From Elusimicrobium sp. (GTDB taxonomy: Bacteria; Elusimicrobiota; Elusimicrobia; Elusimicrobiales; Elusimicrobiaceae), in assembly GCA_015062115.1 (NCBI GenBank), contig SUVG01000001.1, forward strand, positions 186,001 to 250,000: a stretch of 64,000 nt of DNA, written 5' to 3'. Of the stretch, positions 35,019 through 35,988 are shown one piece after another. How positions within the stretch are numbered: position 1 is the stretch's first letter; each line of letters starts with the position of its first letter. The notes beneath the pieces were generated by a model. It was not told the origin of the DNA and searched no databases. It worked only from the letters and a program-made list of their open reading frames with translations. The translations under genes were made by a program, and so were the position numbers.

Positions 35019-35453
35019 CTACAACAATTCAGGCATTTTGTCAGGACGGCACAAACGGCTTTCCTGCACTATCTTTTCGGCATAAGAGCAGTCCACCCAG
35101 CCTTCCTCAATGTGTACTTCAAACCAACTGGGGCGCACCCGGTGGCGCACCTTCAAAATATTTTGCTCCATTTCATAAATATACTCATCGCAAGACAAAG
35201 CCCCGCTGCCTTCCACAGGTTGGCAGGTAAAACCGATATCCAGGCGGGATAAGTCGGGCATATACATACCGTAGCGGGCTTTGAAAGATTCTTGCAAATA
35301 AGCAATTTCCTTTCCGCGCTCTAACGCTTTTTTAGCCAATTGAATAGTTCGGCTTTTTTGATATCTGGGCCACCCCAGTGCAATGGAAAGAGCAAAAGAT
35401 ACAAGAAGTGACAAAACTACCCACTTCACAAAACCGTCTTCCTGTAAAAACAT
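35019..35453 (-). CDS. Atypical pseudopilin-like protein without Glu5
   Basis: 144 residues after an AAGGAG site. The N-terminus MFLQEDGFVKWVVLSLLVSF has a Gly-Phe junction followed by a hydrophobic helix, and then RYQKSRTIQLAKKALERGKEIAYLQESFKARYGMYMPDLSRL, which is the usual pilin alpha-1 tail and 'G-Y-x-P' turn. The position corresponding to Glu5 is not acidic, as in tip pseudopilins of GspK type. Four Cys lie in the C-terminal half. I infer a minor pilin/pseudopilin; the link is by pattern only. It lies upstream of lpoB in the same direction. Confidence 0.55.
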   Translation of the reverse strand: MFLQEDGFVKWVVLSLLVSFALSIALGWPRYQKSRTIQLAKKALERGKEIAYLQESFKARYGMYMPDLSRLDIGFTCQPVEGSGALSCDEYIYEMEQNILKVRHRVRPSWFEVHIEEGWVDCSYAEKIVQESRLCRPDKMPELL

Positions 35454-35530: not shown

Positions 35531-35558
35531 TTTCCGGTGCGGCAGAAAATGTTATACT
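35531..35558 (+). promoter_or_regulatory. Candidate promoter of the structured RNA
   Basis: TTTCCG (35531-35536), a 16-base spacer and TATACT (35553-35558), putting a start site near 35565. Confidence 0.45.
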
Positions 35559-35564
35559 ATTATA

Positions 35565-35727
35565 AAATTTAGGGATTTTTGCCTCCATGCCGTGAAGAAC
35601 GGACATTCTCCCCCGTGAGATAGCGCCAACTGGAGGCAGAAAGTCCGCGTTCTTCCGCGCCTTCGGGCGCGGAGGGGGCGGCTTCTTTTAGGATGGTTGG
35701 CGCTATCTATTAGAAGTCCGCCCCTTT
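35565..35727 (+). ncRNA. Unclassified structured RNA, about 160 nt, with rod fold and possible pseudoknot
   Basis: Nested stems: CGGAC.TTCT/AGAAGTCCG (35600-35609 with 35712-35720, one bulge); a perfect 13-bp stem AGATAGCGCCAAC/GTTGGCGCTATCT (35618-35630 with 35696-35708); AAG.CCGC/GCGGCTT (35641-35648 with 35678-35684); and an apical CCGCGCC-TTCG-GGCGCGG. The 5' leader TGCCTCCA (35580-35587) is complementary over 8 bases to the internal-loop strand TGGAGGCA (35631-35638). A T run follows the outer stem. It shows no recognisable tmRNA, RNase P, SRP or riboswitch signature. The long bulged rod is 6S-like in outline only. It could alternatively be a leader/attenuator for the small ORF at 35755. 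Confidence 0.65.
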
Positions 35728-35754
35728 TTTACTATGGGCGGCCGGAAATAATAT

Positions 35755-35988
35755 ATGCCCCAACCCTACCACAAACTATTATCGCTATTCCAACAAATAG
35801 AGGCGGATTATTGCCGATTGGAAAGAAAAATCGGCCAGTTAAAAAATGCACTCCCTTTTTATTCGACCCTGCCGGAAATATTGATTAAAAGTGTTAAACG
35901 GCAACAACTATTATTAGATACATTAAAGCAAGAATCCCTATCTCCCGATTCCTTACCCGATCATACGCTCTGCGAGAAGCAAAAATAA
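35755..35988 (+). CDS. Small helical protein, unknown function
   Basis: 77 residues with a predicted coiled coil over FQQIEADYCRLERKIGQLKNAL and a second helix (EILIKSVKRQQLLLDTLKQE). A GCCGGAAAT segment upstream may be a weak ribosome site. It starts 28 bases after the terminator of the structured RNA, so expression could depend on read-through. Real but unrecognised, moderate confidence. Confidence 0.5.
   Translation: MPQPYHKLLSLFQQIEADYCRLERKIGQLKNALPFYSTLPEILIKSVKRQQLLLDTLKQESLSPDSLPDHTLCEKQK

Follow-up and report, generated by a model that had tools for sequence, protein, structure and literature searches.

We propose that the structured RNA described here, encoded in a 64,000-nucleotide stretch of Elusimicrobium DNA (the window), lies in the 5' leader of the gene downstream of it and works there, in cis, as a transcription attenuator. 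Folding predictions and comparison with relatives lead us to give this reading a probability of roughly 0.78. Both folds of the RNA, their mutual exclusivity and conservation, the number of copies and the nature of the downstream genes were observed computationally; transcription, termination, antitermination and a kinetic choice between the folds are what we infer to follow in the cell. The logic of attenuation is known; to judge from Rfam and from the open literature that we searched, the RNA family, its private helix and its copy number are apparently undescribed.

The window RNA and its relatives

The source genome (1.44 Mb in 8 contigs, 96% complete) belongs to a gut or rumen lineage of the Elusimicrobiaceae. 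An earlier note, made from the window sequence alone, had described a structured RNA, and the minimum free energy (MFE) of -78.2 kcal/mol, against -56.5 +/- 3.9 in shuffled sequences (z -5.6, 0/200), bears this out. The landmarks named there were recovered at their stated positions (Table 1): the eight-base complementarity between leader and internal strand is exact (helix PK1), AGATAGCGCCAAC and GTTGGCGCTATCT form a perfect 13-bp stem (helix PK2), a UUCG loop caps the apex, and a T6 run at 35725-35730 ends the unit. The promoter-like pair survives as an extended -10 element, with no -35 box found upstream by consensus scan, and the proposed outermost closing helix, CGGACATTCT/AGAAGTCCG, is by our reading of the alignment not preserved in relatives. 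The suggestion that the RNA belongs to no known class agrees with our searches of Rfam 15, in which the window RNA and its family had no match at gathering level, to riboswitch families or any other, and chance matches only at the lax level (E of 1-10); the searched open literature yielded no description of the family.

Table 1. Features of the leader and the gene that follows it, in window coordinates
Feature	Position	Strand	Sequence or motif	Evidence or remark
Extended -10 promoter element	35550..35558	+	TGTTATACT	Sequence; TGnTATACT invariant in 8 window-type copies
Segment 1, 5' strand of leader helix PK1	35580..35587	+	UGCCUCCA	Pairs with 35631-35638; PK1 in window-type alignment: 9 aligned pairs, double changes in 6, 96.7% of cells paired
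Hairpin H1	35590..35602	+	Loop GAAGA	5 aligned pairs, double changes in 4
5' strand of private helix PK2	35618..35630	+	AGATAGCGCCAAC	Cognate complementarity across copies
Segment 2a, 3' strand of PK1	35631..35638	+	UGGAGGCA	Complementary to segment 1; window-type alignment
Segment 2b, antiterminator strand, mimics terminator 3' arm	35641..35648	+	AAGUCCGC	Pairs with GCGGCUU of segment 3 in transcript made before segment 4
UUCG hairpin H4	35655..35672	+	CCGCGCC/GGCGCGG	9 aligned pairs, double changes in 6, 97.8% of cells paired
Segment 3, terminator 5' arm	35675..35691	+	GGGGCGGCUUCUUUUAG	Partner is segment 4 (full-length MFE) or segment 2b (truncated MFE)
3' strand of PK2, inside terminator loop	35696..35708	+	GUUGGCGCUAUCU	Folding; cognate complementarity
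Segment 4, terminator 3' arm, with U6	35709..35730	+	AGAAGUCCGCCCC	AAGUCCGCCC invariant in first 8 window-type copies
Segment 5	35736..35741	+	GGGCGG	Complementary to segment 4 (CCGCCC); present in most window-type copies
Small ORF, 77 aa, putative regulated gene	35755..35988	+		Pfam: no match

BLAST over 199 relatives found the RNA in six further genomes, all of the same genus. With a covariance model (R1) trained on eight window-type copies, the set of distinct full-length copies rose to ten, spread over eight or nine genomes including the source genome, and shortened second copies came to light as well. PK1, H1, the UUCG hairpin and the terminator are conserved among these copies, and the H1 loop is GNAGA-like in most of them. 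Pairing holds in 95.7% of the cells of the model alignment, and 20 of 40 pairs carry double changes, compared with 9.1 +/- 1.9 in shuffles and 2 to 5 in slid controls; the alignment was fitted to the structure, and this covariation figure thus leans towards it. The compensatory changes on which the earlier note had staked its structure are present, with 45 double-changed cells against 12.8 in shuffles.

The terminator hairpin (3:4) and its U-run lie upstream of a coding gene, as the intrinsic terminator of an attenuator does, and the window ORF starts 25 nt past the U6. Behind each window-type leader, or array of leaders, that we inspected comes an ORF of 60-90 aa; five of these ORFs were scanned against Pfam and gave no significant match. 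They form a small helical family, with a P-x-Y motif mid-protein in most members, and resemble small ORFs behind two leaders of the sister class described below (G038 and G048). Arrangement varies between genomes: G055 (L010) has two full tandem copies, each with a separate -10 box, while G065 (L009) and G011 (L023/L032/L034/L035) have a full copy, then a shortened copy comprising the terminator part only, then the small ORF. The leader in the window also adjoins a divergent 144-aa ORF (35019-35453, minus strand), which by eye is like the body of a pilin-like protein; the GFTLIE motif is absent from it and Pfam gave no match.

Four genomes gave weak R1 matches, and these turned out to belong to a related RNA that lies directly upstream of type IV prepilin genes. 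Its elements come in the same order, with one additional hairpin, P3a. A second covariance model, R2, was built for this sister class. Building a covariance model from relatives, the check that the earlier note had proposed, thus revealed both further copies and a larger sister class.

Two exclusive folds and the private helix

In the sister class four segments run in the order 1 CUGUUUUUGGA, 2 UCCAAAAACAGUCGU, 3 ACGGCUGUUAUnUUUGGG and 4 CUCAAAnAUAACAGCCGU, followed by the U-run, with the pairings 1:2 and 3:4 conserved. Segment 2 is equally complementary to segment 3, and this complementarity takes in three positions beyond 1:2, which read Y, Y and G in nearly all copies (column counts corrected for one insertion column). 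The counterparts in the window RNA are segment 2 UGGAGGCAGAAAGUCCGC, segment 3 GGGGCGGCUUCUUUUAG and segment 4 AGAAGUCCGCCCC, and AAGUCCGC copies the terminator 3' arm.

Thermodynamic folding, which leaves out the energy of the PK2 pseudoknot in the off state and real co-transcriptional kinetics, gave for 60 full-length sister RNAs an MFE equal to that of the forced off fold (1:2 with 3:4), the on fold (2:3 with PK2) being 7.3 kcal/mol worse. When these transcripts were cut before segment 4, the on fold was favoured in 98%, by a mean of 8.9 kcal/mol. Across 86 sister RNAs the antiterminator formed in 98% of truncated transcripts bearing their own PK2, in about 51% of those given the PK2 of another copy, and in 1% at full length. 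The window RNA behaves likewise: truncated, it forms all 13 PK2 pairs and all six 2:3 pairs, and at full length none of the 13 PK2 pairs and all six terminator pairs. PK2 is formed by nine of ten window-type copies when truncated, and two copies (G041 and G065a) depart partly in the fold predictions.

An alternative pairing that excludes the terminator, the second hallmark of an attenuator, is therefore encoded, with weak covariation of its own. In the window type, segment 2b:3 has 86% of cells paired, against 41-58% when slid, and the sister class keeps nearly all cells of the eight 2:3 pairs. The observed 2:3 covariation score of the window type was reached by 83 of 500 shuffles, a weakness that arises because 2:3 is for the most part invariant; support for the predicted pairing comes from the folding predictions and from the complementarity being conserved. 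Segment 5 could form a read-through hairpin with segment 4, a tentative assignment since, over the sister class as a whole, this complementarity exceeds chance only slightly. A pairing of segment 1 with a segment 6 before the pilin start is visible in some copies and weak overall, and neither 4:5 nor 1:6 is general across the sister class.

These results also change how the fold in the earlier note is understood. Its rod is the minimum of the transcript cut before 35709, the full-length minimum being the leader helix plus the terminator hairpin, and its 8-bp pseudoknot is present as a pairing that belongs to segment 1:2 of the terminated fold and not to the rod. Because two mutually exclusive folds are encoded, the rod corresponds to the proposed read-through fold and the pseudoknot to 1:2; assigning the two to different, alternative states fits better than combining them in a single fold.

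Helix PK2 combines strict pairing with free sequence. It spans 9-13 bp, is about 99% Watson-Crick and differs in nearly every copy. Complementarity between cognate strands scored 25.4 against 11.9 for non-cognate strands in the ten window-type copies, whose letters are almost wholly changed from copy to copy, and 22.7 against 11.1 across 86 copies of the sister class. Among these 86, the helix is 9-10 bp long in 72, a strand matches its own cognate partner best in 80, and G-U accounts for 12 of 805 pairs, only one of the 12 being internal, compared with 10-14% in most other variable helices. Distinct sequences number 82 of 86 overall, 40 of 40 in genome G060 and 20 of 20 in G040. At the level of sequence comparison, this strictness shows exact complementarity to be under selection. 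The distances between PK2 sequences in G060 match the column-shuffled random expectation, so random drift under strict complementarity would suffice and we rejected the idea that the sequences are actively kept apart. A role as guide to the leader's own gene was likewise rejected: PK2 strands matched their own downstream 300 nt or upstream 250 nt no better than those of other copies, and among the matches listed the window 13-mer had no second site in the genome. We infer that PK2 insulates each leader from its many paralogues.

We propose the following mechanism. Pairing of segments 1 and 2 would accompany the intrinsic terminator 3:4, releasing an RNA of about 160 nt and leaving the gene off. 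The 2:3 antiterminator, coaxially extended by PK2, would exclude the terminator and turn the gene on. PK2 is expected to form before segment 4 emerges, favouring the on fold, and segment 4, once made, would render the off fold the more stable. The outcome would then be decided by timing, or by a factor stabilising one of the two pairings, 1:2 or 2:3. A NusG paralogue of the LoaP/RfaH type was rejected as such a trans factor, as 16 of 17 genomes tested have one NusG domain each, carriers and non-carriers alike.

Distribution, genes and movement of the leaders

The sister class comprises hundreds of copies in the Elusimicrobiaceae. The R2 search, which scored nine candidates per genome, placed it in 82 of 246 genomes; these represent three Elusimicrobiaceae genera and, with a single genome, a second family of the same phylum. 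A deeper search of seven genomes gave at least 130, 51, 21, 12, 7, 3 and 2 copies, all of these counts being lower bounds; the genome with at least 130 measures 1.7 Mb. The source genome has four sister copies, one of them degenerate, in addition to the window copy. The degenerate copy (C4:50306-50430) retains the PK2 3' strand, the terminator and segment 5, has lost the 5' domain, and precedes a broken outer-membrane-protein gene. A pattern scan of 84,980 species genomes returned, among the matches listed, almost exclusively records of Elusimicrobiota; of seven other listed genome records retested with R2, one matched, an 'uncultured bacterium'. A phage origin was rejected, as neither of two viral-contig pattern matches fits the RNA model.

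SD-linked ORFs lie downstream of 83 of 90 sister copies, mostly 30-90 nt past the U-run. Prepilins make up 59 of the 83 by strict motif, with several more recognised by eye, and the remaining genes include outer-membrane proteins, lipoproteins, cell-surface biosynthesis genes and small ORFs. A -10-like box precedes 53 of the 90 copies (16 +/- 3.7 in shuffles). Prepilin N-terminal motifs number 80 in the source genome, 113 in G040 and at least 150 in G060; the leader precedes some of these genes but not all. The notion that every pilin has this leader fails on the 80 prepilins and four copies of the source genome, and on the 76 prepilins and no copies of G066. The terminal loop of P3a (e.g. in L038 and L102) is a candidate binding site: it reads either CUGAUCCC or CUAAUUACC, and both versions are conserved as far as a second family of the phylum.

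The leaders also appear to have moved. At three loci (L048, L050 and L051) the RNAs are 93-98% identical within a common stretch of only about 355-425 bp, comprising the promoter, the RNA and some 35 nt beyond, and the flanks and genes on both sides are unrelated. Leader and gene have by this evidence been reshuffled. Together with L099 and L106, whose 972-bp difference starts right past their shared module and looks like a gene deletion, these loci suggest modular exchange, either of the unit made up of promoter and leader or of its neighbours.

Alternative readings and known systems

A tentative alternative, mechanistically a subtype of attenuation, is a riboswitch for a metabolite or second messenger, with PK1/H1/H2 or the sister P3a as aptamer and 3:4 versus 2:3 as expression platform. 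Loop letters conserved across genera (GNAGA in H1, the two P3a versions) and a regulon of surface genes are consistent with this, and GGDEF domains in all nine genomes tested make a cyclic-dinucleotide ligand such as c-di-GMP possible; against it, a metabolite switch repeated 130 times within a single genome would be an extreme case, and no Rfam riboswitch family matches. It is unlikely that the RNA is instead a free-standing, trans-acting sRNA with its own terminator, the ORF having a promoter of its own and the PK2 strands serving as a private address to a target. A promoter-like box and a terminator do delimit a unit, and the tandem copies of G055 each have their own box, but the PK2 strands find neither a preferential match nearby nor, among the matches listed, a second genomic site, the mimic segments 2 and 4 would be needless, and most copies sit 30-90 nt ahead of coding starts.

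We consider it improbable that the unit acts as DNA, a mobile or recombination element with PK2 as an inverted repeat and an incidental RNA fold. Near-identical modules between unrelated flanks would suit such an element, as would the single internal G-U in 805 PK2 pairs, which DNA complementarity would give; the other helices, however, tolerate 10-14% G-U and covary as RNA, the promoter, U-run and SD context speak against such an element, and an unsystematic search identified neither terminal repeats nor a recombinase. The divergent 6S RNA considered in the earlier note is a very improbable identity. The leader resembles 6S RNA (RF00013) in length (about 160-200 nt) and in its rod-like read-through fold, but differs in having no covariance-model match to Rfam 6S even at an E of 10, up to 130 or more copies per genome, a position before coding sequences, an intrinsic terminator at its end, two conserved, exclusive folds, and no conserved central bubble. 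Two further candidates were rejected: a type III toxin-antitoxin RNA, in which tandem repeats accompany a ToxN-like endoribonuclease, as the neighbour here is a 60-90 aa helical ORF with no Pfam match or a prepilin; and a T-box, as there is no T-box sequence or Rfam match.

The attenuator reading has implications beyond the single locus. Few Elusimicrobiota have been studied experimentally, and the copy number, remarkable for a leader RNA, is tied to a large expansion of pilins in gut members of the phylum. PK2 amounts to a natural experiment, with about 80 different sequences in the same position and almost no G-U, and thanks to this variety one can test directly how the helix influences which of the two folds is adopted. 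Should the switches determine the choice of surface pilins that a cell makes, they would provide an RNA-based route to surface variation. These leaders may represent a new RNA family: an unchanging attenuator scaffold that bears a private, near-strictly Watson-Crick 'barcode' helix and has multiplied more than a hundredfold in one genome, furnishing each of many pilin and surface genes with a switch matched to itself, possibly so that surface variants are expressed selectively or one at a time.

Several known systems share parts of this design. Antisense-controlled plasmid attenuators of the pT181/pIP501 type also place competing hairpins and a rapidly varying specificity element in a leader; the Elusimicrobia leaders differ in being chromosomal and multicopy, and no conserved antisense promoter or transcript was identified for them. 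In T-box leader riboswitches a variable element pairs with tRNA (PMC7583486). Like these and other leader riboswitches, the Elusimicrobia leaders combine a conserved 5' domain and a terminator/antiterminator platform with a variable element in a conserved scaffold, but here that element pairs internally rather than with tRNA. The logic is that of four-segment transcription attenuators, of which E. coli trp is an example. The B. subtilis rplJL leader is another (PMC4538822). Like these, the Elusimicrobia RNAs set 1:2 with the 3:4 terminator against an exclusive 2:3 antiterminator in a 5' leader. Unlike them, they lack a conserved leader peptide, lock the antiterminator with a private, near-strictly Watson-Crick helix, and occur in tens to more than a hundred paralogous copies per genome.
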